From IMG/VR virus record IMGVR_UViG_3300024518_000793, positions 1 to 40,780 of that record: a stretch of 40,780 nucleotides of DNA. One strand, given 5' to 3'. The notes under the pieces are model-generated. The model was not told where the DNA came from and did not search any database. It was given only the letters and a program-made list of their open reading frames with translations. Of this stretch, positions 2,493-36,658 are shown in pieces. This DNA is from a virus. Numbering within the stretch: position 1 is the stretch's first letter; every line of letters starts with the position of its first letter. Both the position numbers and the translations under genes were made by a program.

Positions 2493-2518
2493 TGGTGCGG
2501 AGCCGAGGATTTGAACCT
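2493..2518 (-). other. attP: tRNA 3'-end fragment, candidate attP core
   Basis: The minus strand reads AGG-TTCAAAT-CCTCG-GCTCCGC-A-CCA: T-loop, 3' T-stem, 3' acceptor strand, discriminator and encoded CCA of a tRNA. No matching 5' acceptor (GCGGAGC) lies upstream, and the base at 2519 spoils the T-stem (CTAGG against CCTCG), as expected if identity to a host tRNA begins at AGG. Tyrosine integrases of many phages recombine in such tRNA ends. The integrase gene is far away (36915-37709), which is unusual. Most likely an attP; a degraded tRNA is the alternative. Confidence 0.55.
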
Positions 2519-2593
2519 AGTCTGTCCTGAGACTACCGCCTTTATATTGAGCTGCCGATGACTCGTTCAACTAAACAGTTACTTCTAGAATTC

Positions 2594-2625
2594 ACTGTCT
2601 CGTCTCAAATTATGTACTGTCTCGT
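2594..2625. repeat. Pair of 10-bp repeats 22 bp apart beside candidate attP
   Basis: ACTGTCTCGT occurs at 2594-2603 and again at 2616-2625, offset by 22 bp (about two helical turns) and 76 bp from the tRNA-like core. Phased direct repeats next to an att core are the usual form of integrase arm-type sites. This reading depends on the attP call being right. Confidence 0.4.
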
Positions 2626-2871: not shown

Positions 2872-3180
2872 CTATATCTCTTTTATCCATGGGTTGTCAA
2901 GAGTTACCTGACACAAACCATTGGCTAATCTAGTTACAGTTTCTTCTTCGTCACTATCATCATGTAGATTATACTCTCTATATAAAGCATGAAGGATCTC
3001 ATGAATAAGTGTATTTCTTACGACATCTCTGGGAACTCCTACAGTAGCTACATGGATCTGTAAGTTATTGCTATCACATTTACCGAATATCTCGTGTTCA
3101 TGTGTCCAGTTAACGTCATGTTGGATTAGAGCATAGTTAGCTCCACCAACTTTAATATAATCTTTATTAATTATAACCAT
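2872..3180 (-). CDS. HExxH zinc metallopeptidase-like protein
   Basis: A 102-aa protein with HEILHALYREY near residue 68, an HExxH zinc-peptidase motif in a helix that follows RNTLIHE, and an acidic DDSDEEE after it. Such small zincin-like proteins occur in many phages with unknown substrates. I choose ATG 3180 because GGAGG lies 5 nt before it; an upstream in-frame ATG at 3195 would overlap that ribosome site. The gene sits directly behind a phage-type promoter (3194-3214) and shares a nearly identical promoter-leader with the locus at 34193. Confidence 0.75.
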   Translation of the reverse strand: MVIINKDYIKVGGANYALIQHDVNWTHEHEIFGKCDSNNLQIHVATVGVPRDVVRNTLIHEILHALYREYNLHDDSDEEETVTRLANGLCQVTLDNPWIKEI

Positions 3181-3193
3181 TTCGTCCTCCAAC

Positions 3194-3214
3194 ATCTTAT
3201 AATGTCAATTAAGG
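3194..3214 (-). promoter_or_regulatory. Putative phage RNA polymerase promoter (SP6-like)
   Basis: The minus strand reads CCTTAATTGACATTATAAGA, then TGTTGGAGGACGAAAT and the ATG at 3180. It shares TTA, TGACA and TATA with the SP6 promoter at the same spacing. TTGACA is too close to the TATA-like word for sigma70. From CTTAAT onward 35 of 36 nt match the site at 34211-34230. It would drive the HExxH gene and the downstream late genes. Confidence 0.65.
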
Positions 3215-3310
3215 TATAACTGTATAAGAAACATAAGGTCCCTATAGATATCTTTAAGATATCCTTAGGTAATCCTTAGTATACTATAGTTATATTTAAT
3301 ATCCCTTGCA

Positions 3311-3330
3311 CCTAGTAATGTCAATTAAGG
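3311..3330 (-). promoter_or_regulatory. Putative phage RNA polymerase promoter (SP6-like)
   Basis: The minus strand reads CCTTAATTGACATTACTAGG and lies only a few bases past the large-terminase stop (3334). It shares the first 15 nt with the site at 3194-3214 and then diverges (ACTAGG versus TAAGAT). The 96 bp between the two sites carries GATATC and CCTAAGG words like those of the terminal repeat region. Tandem late promoters are inferred. Confidence 0.6.
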
Positions 3331-3333
3331 GTG

Positions 3334-4989
3334 TTACAGCCAGGAAGCCTTTGATTTCCCTTGATCTCCGAAGATGTGTCTTTCTAAGAATTTCTCATAC
3401 TCAGCATCTTTAAGTTCACTAAGTCTAGAGGTCTCTTGTTCGTCAGCATCTAGGGACATCTGATCAACCCAATATTGTACAGCCATAGCAAGACAGTCAA
3501 TAGCATCATCGTGTAATAAGGCACCACGTTCTTTAGTCATCCTAGTCATCTGATAGAACATTCTGAACTGGTGGGTCTTATCCGTATTAAACTCACGGTA
3601 ATCCTGTTCAATACCTTTACGATCCATAATCAATCTATGTTGGTTCATAATAGGTTCTAGGGTGTCAATTACCCGTAGTTCTTTTTGAACGTGTTGTCTG
3701 ACTTCTTCGATTGGGCAAGGGTATATGCGTCCGAGGACTTTCTTAAAGAGCTCCGAGAACATTCCATCCCCAAAGTTGCTTTCGACCACGATTCCATTAA
3801 CTTGTTGATCCTTGGCAACCTTTGCGAGATACTCAAGTACTTCATCACTATATCCTCCGTCTAATTGTCCGTGAGCTGTAACCCAGATGTTACCACCTAA
3901 ATGTTTAGTTACATTCCACGCTGTTTTATCTTTACCACGACCAGAAGGGTCAATGGTTAATACTGCGCCATCGTAAGGGATCCATGTGTCTGACATAGAG
4001 ACAGGCATATAATATCTGTCTTTACCCATACCCACACAAGGGATATCTTGGATAGCTCGGACAGGATCATTGGACCACACAATAGATGTAGGGGCCTTGT
4101 CTTGATCAATATCCATGATAATGAGGTCTGAGAGCTTCAGAGGATACTTATTAGCATCACTGAGGGCTGTGTCCAACATAAACTGCAGGGCGTACCCTGA
4201 GTTACCATAGGATAGCCTACGCTCTTCAATCTCCATAAGGTTAAACCGAGAAGGTTCTAAGGGATCACCAATAGACAGGTTGTGTTTCTCTATGAATCCG
4301 TGGACCCAATCGGTCATTAGGGCACCATATTCACCCATATATTCATCATTAGGAACTTCCATAGGCCAGATACGCTTCTCATATCCACGTTTCATAAGCT
4401 CGTTGTACAAGCTATCCTCACATTGAGGTGTCCCAAGGTACGTTACCTTACCGCCTGGTTTTAGAATAGCGTCAAATTCTTTAACACGTTCTGCAAGCTT
4501 AAGGCGCATTGTTACGGTGTCGGAGTTGTTAGGAACTTCCACGTCATCCGCAATAATTTCATCAGCACGACCACCAGTCATCTGTCCCATGATACCCACA
4601 GAGCGCACAGAAGGCGCGTGAGAGGCTCCAGCGGGGCCAACGTCAAATGCTACCATAGAATCTCTTTGGCCGTCACGGGGCTTCAGATGCTCTAATAGAG
4701 GCACTTCAGTAATCAGGCGTTTGGTAAAGGTAGTAAATGCGTCTGAGCGATCCTTAGATGCTGAGACAACCATGATGTTCACTTGAGGGTCATTATAGAG
4801 TCTCCATAGTACATAGGCAGACGTAATCCATGACTTACCAATACCCCGAAAGGCAGTAATAGTCTTACGTCTGGGCCCATACTGTAGATAATCTGCAATG
4901 TCATATTGAACTGGGGTAGGGTCAGGGAGGTTCAAATGATCCCAAATGATCCATAGGAAGTTCTTAAATGATTTAATCTCTTGCGTCAT
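3334..4989 (-). CDS. terL: Terminase large subunit (T7 gp19-like)
   Basis: A 551-aa packaging motor. The ATPase domain has FRGIGKSW (Walker A, near residue 50) and DEIIADDVE (Walker B, near 145). The nuclease domain has LTIDPSGRGKDKTAW (first metal-binding Asp), VVESNFGDGMF and the late acidic motif DDAIDCLA. The enzyme cuts concatemers and pumps DNA into the prohead through the portal. Length is close to T7 gp19. It is the last gene of the packaging block and is followed by two phage-type promoters. Confidence 0.95.
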   Translation of the reverse strand: MTQEIKSFKNFLWIIWDHLNLPDPTPVQYDIADYLQYGPRRKTITAFRGIGKSWITSAYVLWRLYNDPQVNIMVVSASKDRSDAFTTFTKRLITEVPLLEHLKPRDGQRDSMVAFDVGPAGASHAPSVRSVGIMGQMTGGRADEIIADDVEVPNNSDTVTMRLKLAERVKEFDAILKPGGKVTYLGTPQCEDSLYNELMKRGYEKRIWPMEVPNDEYMGEYGALMTDWVHGFIEKHNLSIGDPLEPSRFNLMEIEERRLSYGNSGYALQFMLDTALSDANKYPLKLSDLIIMDIDQDKAPTSIVWSNDPVRAIQDIPCVGMGKDRYYMPVSMSDTWIPYDGAVLTIDPSGRGKDKTAWNVTKHLGGNIWVTAHGQLDGGYSDEVLEYLAKVAKDQQVNGIVVESNFGDGMFSELFKKVLGRIYPCPIEEVRQHVQKELRVIDTLEPIMNQHRLIMDRKGIEQDYREFNTDKTHQFRMFYQMTRMTKERGALLHDDAIDCLAMAVQYWVDQMSLDADEQETSRLSELKDAEYEKFLERHIFGDQGKSKASWL

Positions 4990-7075: not shown

Positions 7076-7602
7076 TATTTTACTCCTTGTAAACAAACCT
7101 TATGCCACTTTAGTCTACGCTTCCAAACACCATAACAGTTGTTCTTACGGATCGTACAGTTACGCCCTCCAGCATACTTATATTTTAAAATAGCATCACA
7201 GGCTTTCTTAGGTTCCCCTGAGTTTAGGTGTCTAATCATAGATGATTTACTAACGCCATACACGCCAATGTTATAACTCATATCCGTCATTGCAGCGTGG
7301 ATCTCTGGGGTAACAATAGATTTAGCAGTGTCGTTGTATAAAGCAACAGTGCGAGAACTATAAGATTGGTATTGAACTTTATAGAGCTCCATACATTCTT
7401 CCATAGTATAAGTCTTACCAGGAATGATTTTCTTTGTCTCGCCTACACAGACTGTCTTCACACCAACAGAATCATAGTAGGCATTCAAGCGAACGCCCTC
7501 GTCTTCTTTAGTGAGGTTTAATCCCGTAGCTGTGGCAAGCGTCATAAAGACAGCAGTACCCAACGCAAGGAGCGTCTTAGGTTTCTTCATACAATTAAAC
7601 AT
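7075..7602 (-). CDS. SAR endolysin, GH24 lysozyme
   Basis: A 175-aa lysozyme. Residues 9-28 are weakly hydrophobic and rich in Ala, Thr and Gly, typical of a signal-arrest-release anchor rather than a cleaved signal. The catalytic region is EDEGVRLNAYYDSVGVKT, giving Glu35, Asp44 and Thr50, the triad and numbering I recall for the phage P21 and P1 SAR lysozymes. It cleaves peptidoglycan once released from the membrane. Holin stop and lysozyme start overlap (TAATG), and spanins follow at once. Several cysteines may form controlling disulfides. Confidence 0.92.
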   Translation of the reverse strand: MFNCMKKPKTLLALGTAVFMTLATATGLNLTKEDEGVRLNAYYDSVGVKTVCVGETKKIIPGKTYTMEECMELYKVQYQSYSSRTVALYNDTAKSIVTPEIHAAMTDMSYNIGVYGVSKSSMIRHLNSGEPKKACDAILKYKYAGGRNCTIRKNNCYGVWKRRLKWHKVCLQGVK

Positions 7603-8388: not shown

Positions 8389-9723
8389 TTATTTGTAGTA
8401 GGTGATATTAGCAGTACCACCGTTATATGAGTTAGCACCGCCAGCACTTGTAAGACGTACTGTTGTTAGCTCACCACTTAATGATTTACTACCACCACCA
8501 TAGATGGCACCAGAAGCTCCCTCACGCCCAAAGGAGTAAGAGGCACTCCAAGTATTTGTTGCGCTATCTAAGAGTACAAGTGTCATCACTCCATGTATAA
8601 TTAAACCACTTGTACCTGCCGTATTAACTACAAAACCATTTGTTGCTGTGAGTGTGTTAACGCCTGTAGAAGTTAAGGTTGAGGTGGACACATAACTACT
8701 TGTTTCAACACCACCACTGTCCCCTAGTTGCACAAGGATATCGTCCGTACTGTTAAGACGAACACTACTGAAACAAACTTTTATTTCTTTAATCCCAGAA
8801 GGTAAACTACCAAAATCAATTGTGGTACCTGAGGTCGTTGCAACAGCCGTTGCTGATAAAGCTTTAGCCTCCACAACTTCGTTATCAACATAAAACTTAA
8901 CTTGGTTTGCAGCAGGAACTCTAGAGTTTAATCCTGAAGACATTTGAGATGCGGTGGCTAATGTAACGACACCCGCTTGGTTAGTTGTAGCATCACCAAT
9001 TATAGCCGCCACTTCCGTTCCGCTGAGATCTTCAGGGTCTCCTGTACCTGCGGTTACTCTCCCCTTGATAGTATTAACAGCCATATCTTGTAACTTAGCG
9101 TTAGACACAGAATTATCTGTTAGCTGTAGATCTAGTATTAACCAGCTTGTTGTATCCGCATCATATATACGCAGGTTTGCCGCGACAGTGTTATAGTATA
9201 AATCACCTGAATTTAAAGCGTCTCCATCATTATCTACAGTTGGGTCAGAAGCTTTTGCACCTAAATAGGCATCGTCAAAATCATCGTAAATAGCTTGAAC
9301 TAATGCAAGCGTGGAAGCTGTTTGTGCCTCTGATAGGGCAGCATTAGAAGCCGAAGTTGCCGCAGCAGTAGCTGATAGTTCTGCATCAATAGCATCTTGA
9401 GCTGTATTAACAACAGCATCAAAAGACTCCTGAGCAATAAAGAGAAGCTGGAGGTCCGAGGTGTTCAGATCCCCAGCAGAAAGATTGGCTGCATTCTGCC
9501 ACACGACTTCACGAGTATCTCTAGGAGTACTTCGAGAGATCCTACCAGTAGCCCCGTTAACTGGTGCCACCGCAAATTCTGCTTGGCCCACTGTAGGGAA
9601 TGTGATAGGAGTTGCCACACTATCCACTAACGCTGTAACGTGAGTGTTGTCTAGGTAGTCGAATGGAATACTGAAGATGGTTGTTACACCATCTCCAACA
9701 ATATTAACGAATGAATCAGCCAT
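8389..9723 (-). CDS. Tail fibre protein (T7 gp17-type N-terminus)
   Basis: A 444-aa fibre. Residues 1-110 match the T7 tail-fibre attachment domain (FSIPFDYLDNTHV, then ATGRISRSTPRDTREVVW, then DLNTSDLQLLFIAQESFDA). A helical Ala-rich stretch follows (ATAAATSASNAALSEA), then beta-rich Ser/Thr repeats and a Gly-rich C-terminus (YGGGSKSLSGE, SYNGGTANITYYK). The N-terminus binds the tail; the C-terminus should contact the host receptor. It follows the gp16-like gene as in T7. Confidence 0.92.
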   Translation of the reverse strand: MADSFVNIVGDGVTTIFSIPFDYLDNTHVTALVDSVATPITFPTVGQAEFAVAPVNGATGRISRSTPRDTREVVWQNAANLSAGDLNTSDLQLLFIAQESFDAVVNTAQDAIDAELSATAAATSASNAALSEAQTASTLALVQAIYDDFDDAYLGAKASDPTVDNDGDALNSGDLYYNTVAANLRIYDADTTSWLILDLQLTDNSVSNAKLQDMAVNTIKGRVTAGTGDPEDLSGTEVAAIIGDATTNQAGVVTLATASQMSSGLNSRVPAANQVKFYVDNEVVEAKALSATAVATTSGTTIDFGSLPSGIKEIKVCFSSVRLNSTDDILVQLGDSGGVETSSYVSTSTLTSTGVNTLTATNGFVVNTAGTSGLIIHGVMTLVLLDSATNTWSASYSFGREGASGAIYGGGSKSLSGELTTVRLTSAGGANSYNGGTANITYYK

Positions 9724-9728
9724 TTATT

Positions 9729-12700
9729 TTATCTTTCTTTGTATTTCTCTTTAATGTTTTTGTATTGCTCATTAGCTTTACGCGTCAGCTTAGTTACTTC
9801 TGCATCCATCTTAACAAGTTTATTTAGTTTGGCCTCGTTAGATAACCTTTTACTATCCTTAACTTCGTTGATGTCTTTGTTCATTTCTCTTAGCTTCTTA
9901 TAGGCTTTGTTCAAGTCTTTACGACCTTCTAACTCACCCTTAAACCGTCTAGAGAAATCTCTAAACTCATCACGATTACCTTCACGCTCATCTAAAGAAC
10001 CTGCAGCTTGATTAGCTTCCTCAAGATTAGTGTAGAAGTTTGATAAAGAACGGCTTCGAGAACCTGTAGGTGCTGGGTCTGTAAAAGCCCTAACCACAGG
10101 TATGTCATCCACTGTTCTTAAAGGTTCCACAATATCTTCCCCCCTTAGTTTCTTATAACTACGTAATAACTTATCAGTAGCAGGCAAGAGATAATCTTTA
10201 CCTGAACCACCCAGCAAGGAACTAACAGTGTAGTCTAACTTAGCAGGAGATACATTAAAGAAGTCACCGATTTCTTGCGATGTCTGAGAAGTCCTACGCC
10301 CTTTACGGTCACGTGCTTGAACACCTGTTAACCCTTCTTGATGATCCTGTACAATTGAGGAGTCGAAAAAGAAACTATGGTTTGACGTTAGTTCTGCAAA
10401 TAACTTTAAAGGTACAGGGAAGACAGCCGCAGGATCCGTAATAGGACTTGTAGCTCCAACAATACCACCTAATGTAGACTTCCAAAATTGTTTTATTTCT
10501 GCGTCTTCATTATTACTAAAAGATTCAATCATCATTCTTTCAACTAAAGACCCGAACAAGTATCCAGTAGTAAAAGGTTTTGGATACATTATAGGTCTTC
10601 CTGTGTCTGTGAATCCTACAGGCCACGCAAGGTCTCTCTGGTAATCATTCATCTCTAAATAGTGTTGACGAGTTTCCTCATCGGCACCGTATAAGAAATA
10701 ACCTGTCAAGAGAACTTGAGGAACAGTAATAGTAGCTGCAGCCCAGAAACTAGCAGTAGCTGGGTCATCTCTAAATACTCTAAAAGTCTTATCAATACCT
10801 TGTAAAGAAGCGTTAAAGAAAGGTATGTATCTGTTTAAGAACCTACCAGCACTTCCACCTCTTTGGAAATCCAAAGTAATATCACGTGCTTGTAACGCAG
10901 CTTCAATACCATCCATACCGTCTTTACGAAGTTTCTTATAAATAGCTAATCGTGGAGCCATCTCTAAGGTCTCATTGATCTTATTCATAGCAGTTAAGGG
11001 AAAAGCATACTTAGCAAACTCCAAGGCTTTCTCTTTAGGGTTTTGAGCCCCTAAGATTTCTTTATAAGCCTTTTCAGTTTTGTTAGCGTGTTTCTTAGCG
11101 GCAGCTTTCGCTGCTACTTCGGACACACCAGGTATCCTATAACTAGCTACAGAATCCAATAGAGATCCTTTAGTGGATTTAGTTAAGTCACTGCCAAGAG
11201 CTTGAGTTACCGAATGGAAACCCCCACCGTCTCTGTGAAACTGTTCGACCAAAGCGGGGTCGTACACTTGCGCTGCGACACCGTCCAATATATTTAAAGG
11301 GTTTATTTTACCTTTGGAATGTATTGTTGCTGAGTGAGCATCTCGTAAGAAGTTTCTAATAGCAAACTCAGGCGTAGCTGTTGCTCCTGTTCTAAGGAGA
11401 CCTGCAGTGCCTTTAAAGAAAGCGTCTAGAGTTTTAGTGACAACATTAGCTGGTACAAACCTATCTAAGTTTTTCATAGCTTCCTGTAAAGGCTTATCTA
11501 TTTCTAACCATTTAAGCTTACCGTTCTCCCAATAAGGAGTTTGTTTCCTTGCTGTGAAAGGTCCAGGAGTGCCTGTTACTTTCTTCACACGGTCAGGTAA
11601 GTATTCAGCCACTTGAGCCATCTGCTGTCCGACTTTGGCAGTTTCAGTTAACTTAATAACATCGCTAACATACGTCATGATGTTTAAGTTCATGTCCTCA
11701 ACTTCCCTGTCAGAACCTCGGCGTTTCTTTAGGACAGGCCCTGTGTTTTTAATATCAGAGAATTGATCTAAAGTCATACCAGTAGCGCTATGTACCTCAG
11801 CTTCCATCACACGTCTTAGTGTGGCAAAGTTAGGGCGTTCGGCTACTTTAGCGTCATAGAACTCCTGAGAGACAACACCAGCATCCACAAGGTTTATAAA
11901 GACCCTCTGTAGAAACTCTGTGCTCTCCTTAGCGTTCTCGCTAATATGTGTGTAGGCGCCTTCGTATTTAGCTTCAAGACGTTCTATAGTTGCTTCAGCG
12001 TTAGCTTGGGCTTCTGGGGAAGTAATATACCCAGGGTCTTTAGGCCGTTTCATCCCTAACCTCTTTAATGCATTATTCACATCTTTGTGAGTACTTTCAA
12101 ATAATCTTCCGTCTTTGGATGCTTCACTTAACGTTTTGTAGGCACTGTTTATAGAAGATAATCGGTTTGAGTCTCTTTTTGTAGACGTGCCCGATACGTT
12201 AACTAATTTTAAAGCGGAATTTCTACCTTCTTTTAATTGTACGTCTAAATCTATTCTCTTGTCTTTATCCAAACTTACATCGTCAGATACTGATAAAGCT
12301 ATTCTATAATCATTAAAATCTTGAGCACGAGCTTTTCTATTAGGTTCAATGTCTAATGTATTCCCATCCCAACTATTTAAAACTTCCCTATAACCTGCAC
12401 CAGTACGTTCTACTTGTCCTGTCTCAGCATTAGTACGAGTTGTTCCTGTCATAAGATTAGATTGGACTAACATACCATTAGCTCTTAAACGTCTAACTGT
12501 GTTAGCTAGGTTTAAAGCGGAAGGTTGTACATTCCCTGCTTTAACAGATTCAGCGCTAAGCTTCTCTAGGGCATGTACATCATTAAACACTTGGGCGTAT
12601 ATTGTATCGCCCGCCTCTTTTAGATCGCGGTGGATTAAACTCCAAGAGCTTTCTGTGTAGTCTACATTGGGACCCTCTAAAGACAATTCTCTTGAAGAAG

Positions 12701-14153
12701 AATCCACAACTGTCAGAGCGCCTTTCATAAGAGCTTCTAGTTCAGGGTCGTGTCTAGGTGCCATAGATTCTTCAATCATAGCTTCTTGTTCAGCAACAGT
12801 CATGTTATTAACAGCATCAATAGATTCTTGACTACCACCGAGGAGGCCCTTAGTTATGTTGTAAGAAGCGCTAGAACCTCTTAAGATACCAACAACACCC
12901 GCTTCGATCAATACGTCATCCTTAGAAGGTGTAATAACGTCTAAGTAGTTCCCCATGTCTACCTCATCAGTCGCAACGAGGTCTAGGGTACCGCTGAGGA
13001 TTTGAGACACACGTTCTTCTCCTAACTCAGAGAGGACACTGGTCCAACCAGATTTAGTGAATATTTCACCTACAGTTGCTCCAGGCTTAACTTTCTTGTA
13101 AGCAGTAACAATAGCGCGTCTCGTGTCCACAGGAACTTTCTTAAGGCCTCCCATGAAGGCTGACTTGAGGACTGGTTTTACAGTCTCGTTTAAAAGGGGT
13201 CCCGTAAATTTTGTAACAGGCTTTACTACAAAAGAAGCCGCCTTGTCTATAGCGGGTCCTGACAACTCTGAGCCCACTTGAATAGTGTGGTGACCAAAAG
13301 CCATTAGAGCCGTTTTAGCGGGACTCTCGACAGCTTCGTTCATCAATAACTCACCTTTGTCAGTTATTTGGATTGATTGGTTTACTCTACGTTCTCCTAC
13401 GGTTCCTGCGAGTCTACCCAACATTGCAGGGTTAGCTGAGGTTTTCAAAACGGTCTTTGAGATTTCTTTGGTCAATGCAGTTTTAGCTTTCTTTTTTAGA
13501 CCGACTTTGGCTAAAGCGCCTACACCCCCAGTAGCAAACATCTCCACCATGAAAGCAGGTGTCTGCATTAACCCATGAGCTATAGAGCCCCCTAGAGTCA
13601 TCGAACGGTTAGCGATCTCAACTCTTTCCGAAATGAACTGCTTCATAAGTTTCTGTTGTTGAGCGTTCAACGGTTGCTTGTTTTTAAAATTATCCGCTGC
13701 CTTTAAGAGAACAGCAGACTCCGCTGCTTGTCGAAAACCCCCCATAGGGATAGTGTCCTCGAAATCTAGGAATCCCATTTGATCCCAAATACCAATAGGA
13801 CCTTTATCTGTCATAGCCTTTAGTTCATCTTCAGAAAAGAAAGCTTTACCTATTTGGGTCCACTGGTCTGCTTCATTCTCAATTTCAGCTTTGGCTTCAA
13901 CAGGTAAGGTATCTAAAGGTTGCCCCCCAAGAGCTTCTTTATTAATCTCTTGAGGAGTTTTTATAGGAGGTAAATCAGCTTCGTCTAGTTGAAAGTCTAC
14001 TAAAGAAGGATGGAGAGTTTCCTTGGTGTCCACAGGGACAGGCTCCAAGTCACTCTCATCGAGTTGGAAGTTATCCATTATACTACGTAAGCTTACTTCC
14101 TCTGTATTATCTACAGGGGTAACACTCTCTTCAATGTTATTATCAACTTCCAT
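9729..14153 (-). CDS. Internal virion protein D-like (gp16 position), 1474 aa
   Basis: A very large late protein in the T7 gene 16 position (T7 gp16 is about 1318 aa). T7-type gp16 proteins are ejected and form the channel across the envelope. Unlike T7, I see no transglycosylase motif at the N-terminus. That end is acidic and carries a doubled motif, NFQLDESDLEP and DFQLDEADLPP. A likely membrane segment, ITVPQVLLTGYFLYG, lies in the C-terminal third, and the last 150 residues are charged and helical. Function rests on synteny, size and composition. Confidence 0.8.
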   Translation of the reverse strand: MEVDNNIEESVTPVDNTEEVSLRSIMDNFQLDESDLEPVPVDTKETLHPSLVDFQLDEADLPPIKTPQEINKEALGGQPLDTLPVEAKAEIENEADQWTQIGKAFFSEDELKAMTDKGPIGIWDQMGFLDFEDTIPMGGFRQAAESAVLLKAADNFKNKQPLNAQQQKLMKQFISERVEIANRSMTLGGSIAHGLMQTPAFMVEMFATGGVGALAKVGLKKKAKTALTKEISKTVLKTSANPAMLGRLAGTVGERRVNQSIQITDKGELLMNEAVESPAKTALMAFGHHTIQVGSELSGPAIDKAASFVVKPVTKFTGPLLNETVKPVLKSAFMGGLKKVPVDTRRAIVTAYKKVKPGATVGEIFTKSGWTSVLSELGEERVSQILSGTLDLVATDEVDMGNYLDVITPSKDDVLIEAGVVGILRGSSASYNITKGLLGGSQESIDAVNNMTVAEQEAMIEESMAPRHDPELEALMKGALTVVDSSSRELSLEGPNVDYTESSWSLIHRDLKEAGDTIYAQVFNDVHALEKLSAESVKAGNVQPSALNLANTVRRLRANGMLVQSNLMTGTTRTNAETGQVERTGAGYREVLNSWDGNTLDIEPNRKARAQDFNDYRIALSVSDDVSLDKDKRIDLDVQLKEGRNSALKLVNVSGTSTKRDSNRLSSINSAYKTLSEASKDGRLFESTHKDVNNALKRLGMKRPKDPGYITSPEAQANAEATIERLEAKYEGAYTHISENAKESTEFLQRVFINLVDAGVVSQEFYDAKVAERPNFATLRRVMEAEVHSATGMTLDQFSDIKNTGPVLKKRRGSDREVEDMNLNIMTYVSDVIKLTETAKVGQQMAQVAEYLPDRVKKVTGTPGPFTARKQTPYWENGKLKWLEIDKPLQEAMKNLDRFVPANVVTKTLDAFFKGTAGLLRTGATATPEFAIRNFLRDAHSATIHSKGKINPLNILDGVAAQVYDPALVEQFHRDGGGFHSVTQALGSDLTKSTKGSLLDSVASYRIPGVSEVAAKAAAKKHANKTEKAYKEILGAQNPKEKALEFAKYAFPLTAMNKINETLEMAPRLAIYKKLRKDGMDGIEAALQARDITLDFQRGGSAGRFLNRYIPFFNASLQGIDKTFRVFRDDPATASFWAAATITVPQVLLTGYFLYGADEETRQHYLEMNDYQRDLAWPVGFTDTGRPIMYPKPFTTGYLFGSLVERMMIESFSNNEDAEIKQFWKSTLGGIVGATSPITDPAAVFPVPLKLFAELTSNHSFFFDSSIVQDHQEGLTGVQARDRKGRRTSQTSQEIGDFFNVSPAKLDYTVSSLLGGSGKDYLLPATDKLLRSYKKLRGEDIVEPLRTVDDIPVVRAFTDPAPTGSRSRSLSNFYTNLEEANQAAGSLDEREGNRDEFRDFSRRFKGELEGRKDLNKAYKKLREMNKDINEVKDSKRLSNEAKLNKLVKMDAEVTKLTRKANEQYKNIKEKYKER

Positions 14154-19962: not shown

Positions 19963-19998
19963 ATGTTTATCTAGGTGGAGGAGAACACCTAAATTAGT

Positions 19999-20931
19999 TT
20001 AGGCTGTTTTAATTTCAACAGCTTCTTCAGGACGGTTTACACCAGTACCCAAGTACATCTTAGAAACCAAGTGAGTACCTTGCTTCTCTGTCTTGTAGTC
20101 CATCTCAGTAGAGATACCCATAAGTTTAACGGTACGGGCAGCACCAGGACGGGCAATAACAGCAGCAGTTGTACTAAAGTTGCCGCGGTATTTCGCAGGG
20201 ATTCCAGCAAGACCACTGTCATCAGCAGTAGGTAGGTTAACAGTCTTCTGAATACCAATGTCAGCAACTTTGTGTACTAGACCAGTGCTGTAAGAACCAG
20301 AACCATCCCAGTCACGATTAATGACATCAGTTGTTTGTGCAAGTAAGTAGTACTGTGCAGGGCGTACAAATGCTGTACGATCACCTTGTGGTACATACTT
20401 CTCATCTAAGTTTTGAGCAGCAGTAAAGATACTCGCAGCTAGAGAGGCACCGTTTGTTTTAGCATCAGCATCAACAATTTCAGTTCCGCCTTCTTGACCA
20501 GTAATAGTGGCACCAGTACGCGCAGCCAATACCAATGTACGAAGTACGTTAGCATCAAACATATTCGCTAGGGCTTCACCTTGCTGACGAGTGAACTCTT
20601 GACGTTTAGAAACGTGATCACGAAGTTCATCAATCTGACGAATAACAACATCGTGGTAAAGCAAGTCATCCAGAGTAATGTTAACTTCATTACTAGAAAT
20701 GTTCTCACCTTCAAGTTCAGTAACACCATCCCAGTAAACAGCGTTCGCACGTCCAATAACAGGGAATTGGAAAGACTTACCAGAAGATTCAGATTGAACC
20801 AAGTGGTATTTTTCCATGATGTTTGCGGCATTGTAGGATGCCATAGTTTCGCCACCGTACATCTTCAAGAAGAGTGCATCGTCAGCTCCTGCGCCATTAG
20901 CTTGACCAGGTAAGTTATATGTAGTAGCCAT
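19999..20931 (-). CDS. Major capsid protein (gp10-like)
   Basis: A 310-aa T7-type capsid protein: ANIMEKYHLVQSESSGKSF, FPVIGRANAVYW, ITLDDLLYHDVVIRQIDEL, EALANMFDANVLRTLVLAAR, and late ATEMDY-like and VSKMYLGTGVNRPEEAV parts. This is the HK97-fold shell protein. The scaffold gene precedes it with a 131-bp leader; a terminator hairpin follows. It is the most likely client of the phage GroES. Length is a little below T7 gp10A (345 aa). Confidence 0.95.
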   Translation of the reverse strand: MATTYNLPGQANGAGADDALFLKMYGGETMASYNAANIMEKYHLVQSESSGKSFQFPVIGRANAVYWDGVTELEGENISSNEVNITLDDLLYHDVVIRQIDELRDHVSKRQEFTRQQGEALANMFDANVLRTLVLAARTGATITGQEGGTEIVDADAKTNGASLAASIFTAAQNLDEKYVPQGDRTAFVRPAQYYLLAQTTDVINRDWDGSGSYSTGLVHKVADIGIQKTVNLPTADDSGLAGIPAKYRGNFSTTAAVIARPGAARTVKLMGISTEMDYKTEKQGTHLVSKMYLGTGVNRPEEAVEIKTA

Positions 20932-24561: not shown

Positions 24562-24583
24562 CTCCTACTAATGTTAATTAAGG
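24562..24583 (-). promoter_or_regulatory. Putative phage RNA polymerase promoter for virion genes
   Basis: The minus strand reads CCTTAATTAACATTAGTAGG. It matches the sites at 3194-3214, 3311-3330 and 34211-34230 in CTTAAT, ACATTA and the final AG. It lies in one of the few gaps between genes, exactly at the switch from replication to virion genes. Position adds weight to the motif match. Confidence 0.6.
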
Positions 24584-34193: not shown

Positions 34194-34210
34194 TATTTCG
34201 TCCTCCAACA

Positions 34211-34230
34211 TCTTATAATGTCGATTAAGC
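34211..34230 (-). promoter_or_regulatory. Putative phage RNA polymerase promoter after gene 1
   Basis: The minus strand reads GCTTAATCGACATTATAAGA just 13 bp past the RNA polymerase stop and continues TGTTGGAGGACGAAAT. Apart from one base (C for T) it equals the 36-nt cassette at 3180-3213. It would start the replication transcript, as T7 promoters after gene 1 do. Confidence 0.65.
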
Positions 34231-34243
34231 CTATTTACGTAGT

Positions 34244-36658
34244 TTAAGCAAAGAAGAAGTCAGACTGTAAAACTTCCTCAATATCTAGTGTGCCCTTTTT
34301 AGGCGGCTTAGGGATACTATCAGGGTCACTAACCTGAGTTTTAATTTCTTCATAGAAATTATGCAACACATCAGTATCTCTATGGATCTGCACAAAAGCA
34401 TGTCTTAATAAGAGAGCAAGCTTAGAAGTATCTGCTGCGTGGGTCCCAAAACTATCATGAACCATAGCTAGGTCTAGGACCTCATTAGATTCTGCTAGAT
34501 TTACTGTTCTTATCAAGTGTGCCGCATCACATGAGTGCACAAAATTAGGGCTAATAGCTGCAGACATACGTTTCTTATTAATCTTATCGCTATTGTTCGT
34601 CTTTAACTTGGTTGAATAAAAGGTACCTGCAATCTCTGTGCGGACACGGGAAGTACAGGCTTGTTTATACTCTTGTAGTACAGGAAACCCCACAGGTGTT
34701 GTCCAGTGAACTGGTAAGTTCTCGGCTGCAGCTATCTTAGCAACTTTCTGTAACCATTCCATGGCCTCAGCAGCAGAAACAACAATTTCACCCAAACTCT
34801 CTTTAATCATTTGACCTAAGAAAATACACTCTCTGAACCCATCCTCAGCAAAAAGGGGCGTTTCAAGCCCATCATCTTTCCAAGATTGTAGCTCAGTCAT
34901 AAGCTGTTGCGTGAAGCCTGTTAGGGTGGCCCCGTAAGGCATCGTCATAGTAGGACGCTTAACTAACTTACGAGAAATAAAGCCCTTCCAAGGTAAAGCT
35001 AAAGGATCCTTAGACTCATCCAGCTTTCTTATTAGGACATCGGCTACTTCACGGTAGATATCTGCGGGTTCATCTAACGGCACCAGGTTAGTGGCTTTGC
35101 CCCCAATAGGATCCCTCAGCATAGCAGAGAAATTCTGTAGACCATTACAAGAGCCATCTAAAGCCACAGGTAGATGACTAATAAAATTCTCAGGGTCTTC
35201 TATAAAGTCTCTCCATTCTAAACAGAAGGCGAGGAACTGCCAAGGCTTATCTGCCTCTGTCCACCACTTGTTATCAAAGGGAGCCTTAGCACAGGCAATT
35301 ATCTTATCCTGGTGTTCCTGGGTCCACTCAACACGAGCCTGTAAGGTAACTTTATCAAATCCAAATAGGTTAGAACCATGTAAGGCAAGCCATGCACCAC
35401 TCTCATCGTCTACTGGTTTACCCTCTGCGAATGTTAAGAGAGCTTTCGTGCTATCATCGCCCTGAGGTGTTAAATATACTTGCGCTGGATACACACGGCC
35501 CCTGAAGTCTAAACTATAAACAAAGTACAAGCATTCTTCATCCACAAACTTCTTGGCAACCTGTAGCTTCTTACGTAGCGATAAGAATTTTGATCTCTGT
35601 CTAATGTTTTCTGTGTATGTAATGGCGGCTTGCTTTCTCCATTGAAAACGTGCTGCTTCATTTGTTGCAATGTCTAATGGTGTAGGTGGCAAAACAGCTT
35701 CTTCTCCTGTTGGTAATCCCCCGATTGAGAAATCATTATCTGCGGCCTGTGTCATTAATTCGTATATCTCTTTATTCACTTTCCATTTAGTTTTTTGTAG
35801 GTGGTTTATAGACTGGAATACTTCCCACATGTCCACACCATTAAGATCTTCTAGATAATTAAAGTTTGTTCTACGTACTAAAGAGCCGTGTATAAAGGGA
35901 GACCAGAACCCACCATTGTGTGAGCTCGTCCAATCTTTAGGAGGGACTAGCATAGGCATTATAACAGGCTGCAGTAATTCACAAGCTGCATTGTAAGACT
36001 TTAACCATTCAGTAGTTTTAGCTGTAGGCTGTACCAGAATAGATTTCCTCTTGGATCCATTCATGCCTAGAGGCTTAAACATCTCCACTAGGCCCGTGTG
36101 CTCAATGATTAAAGATAACATCAAGGCCCCAATGGTGTGCTTCTCCTGTATAGTGAACTTAATTAAAGCAATGTCATCTTTTTGGGCGGAGTGTCTTAAC
36201 ACGGTCCGTACATGTCTTTCGTTATTAGAGCGTTTTAATACGTCTCTCTTAACCTTCTTGTAATGGTTAGGGGATTCCTCTTTGAATTTTAAATAGTTTT
36301 TCTCATTTTCTATTTGAGACCCAATAGCCAGCGTGACCTGTGGGAAGGTTCTACGGTCAGACATTTTATCCAATAATACTTTTAAACTAAGGAAGGCCAC
36401 AACATCGGAAGGCATATCTTTAATAAACTTATGCGCCGCATGGTGTCTACCCGCAGATTTAGCTTGGGCAACCTTATAAGCATCTAAACCTTTAACGAGA
36501 GGTTCAAAAGCTTCACGCATTATCCGTAGAGTTCCACTAGTGGTACTCTCTAGGCCATTATCCTTAGCCGCTTGGACTTCCTCACGGAAACGGGCCACAC
36601 CCATTCCACGCATTTCTTCTTCTAAGTCAATCTGTCTGTCAAATATATCTTTAGTCAT
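34244..36658 (-). CDS. T7-like single-subunit RNA polymerase
   Basis: An 804-aa polymerase, shorter than T7's 883. Catalytic parts: LDGSCNGLQNFSAMLRD (first metal Asp), KRPTMTMPYGATLTGFTQQL (Lys and Tyr of the fingers helix) and MVHDSFGTHAA (Asp735). The C-terminus ends SDFFFA, like the T7 foot SDFAFA that reaches the active site. It should read the promoters at 34211, 24562, 3311 and 3194. It lies behind integrase and a 72-aa gene, an order known from integrase-bearing marine T7-like phages. Confidence 0.97.
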   Translation of the reverse strand: MTKDIFDRQIDLEEEMRGMGVARFREEVQAAKDNGLESTTSGTLRIMREAFEPLVKGLDAYKVAQAKSAGRHHAAHKFIKDMPSDVVAFLSLKVLLDKMSDRRTFPQVTLAIGSQIENEKNYLKFKEESPNHYKKVKRDVLKRSNNERHVRTVLRHSAQKDDIALIKFTIQEKHTIGALMLSLIIEHTGLVEMFKPLGMNGSKRKSILVQPTAKTTEWLKSYNAACELLQPVIMPMLVPPKDWTSSHNGGFWSPFIHGSLVRRTNFNYLEDLNGVDMWEVFQSINHLQKTKWKVNKEIYELMTQAADNDFSIGGLPTGEEAVLPPTPLDIATNEAARFQWRKQAAITYTENIRQRSKFLSLRKKLQVAKKFVDEECLYFVYSLDFRGRVYPAQVYLTPQGDDSTKALLTFAEGKPVDDESGAWLALHGSNLFGFDKVTLQARVEWTQEHQDKIIACAKAPFDNKWWTEADKPWQFLAFCLEWRDFIEDPENFISHLPVALDGSCNGLQNFSAMLRDPIGGKATNLVPLDEPADIYREVADVLIRKLDESKDPLALPWKGFISRKLVKRPTMTMPYGATLTGFTQQLMTELQSWKDDGLETPLFAEDGFRECIFLGQMIKESLGEIVVSAAEAMEWLQKVAKIAAAENLPVHWTTPVGFPVLQEYKQACTSRVRTEIAGTFYSTKLKTNNSDKINKKRMSAAISPNFVHSCDAAHLIRTVNLAESNEVLDLAMVHDSFGTHAADTSKLALLLRHAFVQIHRDTDVLHNFYEEIKTQVSDPDSIPKPPKKGTLDIEEVLQSDFFFA

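Follow-up and report, generated by a model that had tools for sequence, protein, structure and literature searches.

Genomic context and closest relative

The window, meaning the whole stretch of DNA analysed, is the 40,780-base genome of a T7-like podovirus whose minus strand holds nearly all large genes. The two ends of the window join in one continuous reading frame, showing that the genome is circular. PHROGs recognise the RNA polymerase (RNAP), Gp2.5, primase/helicase, DNA polymerase, exonuclease, head-tail adaptor, capsid and terminase large subunit (TerL). The minus strand carries TerL (3334–4989), the T7-like RNAP (34244–36658) and a 264-aa tyrosine integrase (PF00589; 36915–37709). 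Past TerL, a small HEILH gene (SprT-like/peptidase-like; 2872–3195, minus) lies directly upstream of a non-coding gap, and a 79-aa gene (2233–2472, minus) follows on its other side. Between terminase and the repeat region lie a GroES-like co-chaperonin (1689–1985) and a glutaredoxin (1982–2233); degenerate tandem repeats of GGGTAACTAAGGGATATCTAA occupy 1024–1148, in non-coding DNA to which the terminal repeat may belong. A minus-strand motif, CTTAATTGACATTATAAG, is repeated at 3193–3214, 3309–3330, 24562–24583 and 34209–34230 and is probably the phage RNA polymerase promoter.

Scans of viral contigs with the TerL, integrase and HEILH proteins returned one close relative only, IMGVR_UViG_3300001202_000009 (40,877 bases), which is likewise circular and whose ends fall within the integrase gene. 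Its identity to the window is 87% for TerL, 79% for integrase and 77% for RNAP. No provirus of the window phage was found among the viral contigs, where this is the single close relative. Where the two genomes can be aligned, identity is mostly 60–80%, and they share 23 exact runs of at least 26 nt in all, nearly all of them coding. A 39-nt intergenic hairpin-like stretch (19972–20010), which might be terminator-like or a processing site, is also exactly conserved in the relative.

A tRNA-Leu-type 3′ end in the gap behind terminase

The non-coding gap contains a 26-nt candidate attP core on the minus strand (2493–2518; AGGTTCAAATCCTCGGCTCCGCACCA), recognised from its sequence, from the relative and from an isotype search. 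Read from 2518 to 2493 as AGG-TTCAAAT-CCTCG-GCTCCGC-A-CCA, it comprises part of the T-stem, the T-loop, the 3′ strand of the T-stem, the 3′ strand of the acceptor, A73 and CCA. The original prediction described a tRNA 3′ end that lacks its 5′ half and has a T-stem mismatch at its edge, and both points held: the letters fit T-loop, acceptor and CCA, the 5′ T-stem strand CTAGG leaves one mismatch, and no complete tRNA was detected around the fragment by ARAGORN at default settings, by Infernal with RF00005 or by Rfam. ARAGORN gave noise-level matches only at a reduced threshold and low-scoring fits only for a tRNA with an intron, and a tmRNA was rejected by ARAGORN -m and Rfam. The complete cloverleaf that defines a phage tRNA gene is thus missing, and what is present, from T-stem to CCA only, is the partial tRNA copy expected of a tRNA-derived attP. 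Three T-arm-like stems occur in the window genome, and CCA follows at tRNA distance only after the stem at 2518–2493. Another T-arm-like motif, GGTTCGAATCC at about 5910, was set aside as a chance occurrence, being inside an ORF and without CCA.

The acceptor pattern GTTCRANYCNNNNGCTCCGCACCA was searched in 2.9 million viral contigs, and its carriers besides the window were the relative and three intact tRNA-Leu genes, so the fragment is of tRNA-Leu type. The best of these three genes agrees with it at 24/26 positions, and the match to tRNA-Leu has an E value of 5e-6; no other tRNA-Leu match above noise exists elsewhere in the window or the relative genome. Directly 5′ of the T-loop stem lies an inverted repeat, TAGTCT-CAGGAC-AGACTA (2518–2535, minus), and the relative has ACAG-CCCA-CTGT at this position. 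In each phage the hairpin at this position could correspond to the variable arm found in class II (Leu) tRNAs. Its alignment to tRNA-Leu is not significant alone, and the remaining 5′ side aligns no better than shuffles. At the distance that a tRNA would span, a 7-mer weakly resembling a 5′ acceptor strand is present in both phages. No convincing anticodon-arm motif common to the two phages was found.

The fragment is invariant in the relative

The relative carries all 26 nt unchanged at the homologous place, between its HEILH gene and 79-aa gene. The sequence flanking the 26 nt is unrelated between the two phages on both sides, the non-coding DNA around the site is about 65–75% identical, and an additional small gene lies directly past the CCA in the relative. 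The spacing from CCA to ATG is 20 nt in both phages though the genes that follow differ. We estimate the chance of 26/26 identity at a background of about 72% to be about 2e-4. The 3′ strand is invariant, and its 5′ T-stem and acceptor partners differ between the phages and mispair, which argues for a constraint on sequence and not on an RNA fold. This suggests, from the comparison of two genomes, the sequence-level constraint that an attP core needs; a functional tRNA would not show such a pattern.

At 82 nt upstream of the 26-mer, the relative has another tRNA-like 3′ end, reading AAGGG-TGCAAGT-CCCTT-ACACGCC-A-CCA (7346–7374 of the analysed relative sequence). Such an end occurs in shuffles at a frequency of 0.0004 (0.04%), and it is accompanied at the canonical distance by a Met-like anticodon-arm-like stem (CAT) without a D-arm. 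The two tandem tRNA-like 3′ ends in the relative suggest the remnant of a tRNA pair.

A conserved non-coding block of about 80 nt (2677–2757, minus) lies upstream of the fragment in the window. It belongs to no known RNA family in Rfam, and its folding in the window is no better than that of shuffles, so it was rejected as a structured ncRNA. Its GGCG(A)AGCC might pair with GGCUCCGC of the fragment, but too weakly for a claim.

Search for a matching host tRNA

The original prediction called for a bacterial tRNA gene ending in the same 26 nt, and no such gene came to light: the 26-mer had no match in 84,980 species genomes, a looser 21-mer had only two, neither of them a tRNA, and 294 Planctomycetota genomes held no match to the fragment with one mismatch allowed. 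Among the 2.9 million viral contigs, the 26-mer occurs in the relative alone. We regard the missing attB as only moderate evidence and not as proof, because the phage group is rare in collections.

The integrase and the direct repeats

The integrase is intact: it matches PF00589 and PHROG_1 and contains the motifs TGLRP, HTFASR, GH and Y. It has no detectable arm-binding domain. Compared with the integrase of the relative, both ends are nearly identical and the middle (about residues 108–204) is strongly divergent, a pattern that an exchange of part of the catalytic domain would leave.

Two direct repeats on the plus strand, ACTGTCTCGTCTC (2594–2606) and ACTGTCTCGTGTC (2616–2628), had been likened to arm-type sites. 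The repeats themselves are real, with 12/13 identical positions, a spacing of 22 bp and a distance of 76 bp from the fragment, an arrangement matched by 0/200 shuffles. For arm-type sites one expects repeats that are conserved and an arm-binding domain that binds them. Because these repeats are missing in the relative, despite an integrase N-terminus about 90% identical, and because no such domain was detected, their reading as arm-type sites is unsupported.

The distance of 7 kb or more first given between integrase and fragment has to be shortened, since the genome is circular: from the integrase start (37709) to the fragment (2493) it is 5,564 bp on the circle. The original prediction placed terminal repeats and early genes between them; on the circle, the early genes and a repeat-rich region (about 500–1400) lie there. 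The fragment is therefore not beside int, where attP usually occupies the int–RNAP gap, and it starts in the T-stem, not at the tRNA-Leu anticodon loop where the core would be expected. The gap itself is filled by small ORFs that differ between the window and the relative. Because these ORFs fill the place of attP in related phages, no attP candidate was found near int, and nothing tRNA-like was detected there. No MarR-type regulator, a frequent neighbour of int in relatives, turned up in the early genes scanned.

Comparison with known integration systems

The tRNA-Leu type agrees with what is known of temperate T7-like phages, in which tRNA-Leu is the usual integrase target. Relatives of the integrase in cyanophages target tRNA-Leu, and integration of S-TIP37 into tRNA-Leu was shown by experiment to require both int and attP (PMC8776855). 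The gene is likewise the integrase target in an HTVC019P-like phage (PMC3861242), and LUZ100 has tRNA-Leu beside int (PMC10134795). In our comparison, relatives of the integrase had tRNA-Leu sequence near int, mostly covering the anticodon loop: P-SSP7 and HTVC105P carry a tRNA-Leu 5′ half in the int–RNAP gap; HTVC200P and LUZ100 combine an intact tRNA-Leu, upstream of int, with a stretch covering the anticodon loop in the gap; tRNA-Leu lies upstream of int in RHEph01 and RHEph21 and 1.4 kb downstream of it in Lo5R7ANS; and in ProddE int is followed by a tRNA 3′ half.

The window phage shares with P-SSP7, S-TIP37, HTVC105P, HTVC200P, LUZ100 and RHEph01/21 the phage architecture, a tyrosine integrase next to RNAP and a phage-borne tRNA-Leu sequence. 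However, attP in those phages spans the anticodon loop and lies beside int, mostly in the int–RNAP gap, whereas the window site runs from T-stem to CCA only and lies 5.6 kb from int, past terminase. The intact tRNA-Leu genes near int in LUZ100, RHEph21 and Lo5R7ANS have A73 and CCA in common with the fragment, but they are complete tRNAs. A provirus whose integrase is 36–38% identical is located at a tRNA-Leu, the 3′ end of which agrees with the fragment at 24/26 positions, and a tRNA-Leu stretch from anticodon to variable arm is repeated elsewhere on its contig.

A more distant cousin, IMGVR_UViG_3300017782_000321 (TerL 73%, RNAP 60% identical to the window), carries, immediately beside its own, different integrase, a 3′ fragment of tRNA-Glu type that extends from the anticodon loop to CCA (about 43 nt). 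Within its region 9000–13500, the fragment lies at about 2860–2896 and the 337-aa tyrosine integrase at 2916–3929. The 26-mer of the cousin occurs in 13 other viral contigs, one of which has an intact tRNA-Glu containing it, and is useful for host assignment; the cousin also carries intact tRNA-His and tRNA-Glu. Its attP-like fragment resembles that of the window in being the 3′ part of a tRNA up to CCA without the 5′ half and in coming from the same phage lineage, but it differs in starting at the anticodon loop, in being adjacent to int and in being common among viruses. Because the cousin fragment is adjacent to its integrase and recurs in 13 contigs, this lineage does place 3′ tRNA fragments where attP would be, and a fragment of that kind is normally seen elsewhere too.

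Interpretation of the fragment

The reading that we place first, tentatively, is a detached att core, either working or orphaned by integrase exchange. More specifically, the fragment would be a tRNA-Leu 3′ end kept as a T-loop-type attachment core, probably attP, that has moved away from its integrase. The genome would circularise, the tyrosine integrase would pair the TTCAAAT loop region with its identical counterpart in a host tRNA-Leu gene, and after insertion the phage-borne end from T-stem to CCA would rebuild the host tRNA. The tRNA 3′ end, its Leu type, its position and its conservation are shown, as is the integrase; the recombination and the use of the site by this integrase are the parts that we infer. 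Under this proposal every base up to the CCA would be fixed and the flanks would be free to drift, because the phage end rebuilds the host tRNA. The narrower version, a working T-loop-type tRNA-Leu attP moved beyond the terminal-repeat region and behind terminase, is on its own rather unlikely; an orphan attP from an earlier integrase would look alike.

The original attP claim thus stands in part. Its support comes from the tRNA-Leu-type 3′ fragment, conservation at the sequence level and the lack of a rival site near int; against it are the lack of a matching host tRNA, the lack of an anticodon-loop core and the tandem ends in the relative. The missing attB counts less against attP than the distance from int and the lack of the anticodon loop do.

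Close behind, though doubtful, is the explanation that the fragment has no present function and is what remains of a phage-borne tRNA-Leu gene (or a small cluster of tRNAs) that has decayed, or of a dead att site. This would account for the two tandem tRNA-like 3′ ends of the relative, which stand at tRNA spacing with a CAT anticodon-arm-like stem at the upstream one, and for the acceptor-like 7-mer in both phages. It is also consistent with the intact tRNA-Leu genes in several T7-like relatives, with the tRNA-His and tRNA-Glu genes of the cousin and with the absence of a host match from the species genomes searched. However, a relic should decay like its flanks, and the 5′ halves align to tRNA-Leu no better than shuffles do. 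A relic without function does not easily explain why 26/26 letters were kept while the sequence to either side turned over, and this speaks for attP.

It is improbable, though less so than pure chance, that the fragment acts at the RNA level, as a T-arm/acceptor end read in the late transcript by RNase P, RNase Z or a CCA/EF-Tu-type reader, which would fix the 5′ start of the next mRNA or make the upstream RNA more stable. The fragment lies downstream of the phage-promoter-like motifs at 3193 and 3309, on the strand that is transcribed, and both the constant CCA-to-ATG spacing before different genes and the conserved upstream block would fit such an element. However, the acceptor and T-stem strands have mispairs with their 5′ partners in the window, shuffles of the region fold at least as well as the region itself, and no Rfam family matches. 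Chance resemblance to a tRNA end, which the shortness of the motif and the mismatched T-arm stem might allow, is excluded in practice by its being the sole T-arm with CCA in the genome, by its identity at the homologous place in the relative and by the E value of the tRNA-Leu match.

If the fragment is attP, site and integrase would come near each other only on circularisation, tying integration to that step, and integration would split the prophage after the late operon and not between int and RNAP, giving a different prophage gene order for the lysis–lysogeny choice. Searches for attP confined to the neighbourhood of int would then miss the sites of such phages. If it is a relic, the fragment would record the loss or exchange of a lysogeny module in a T7-like lineage.
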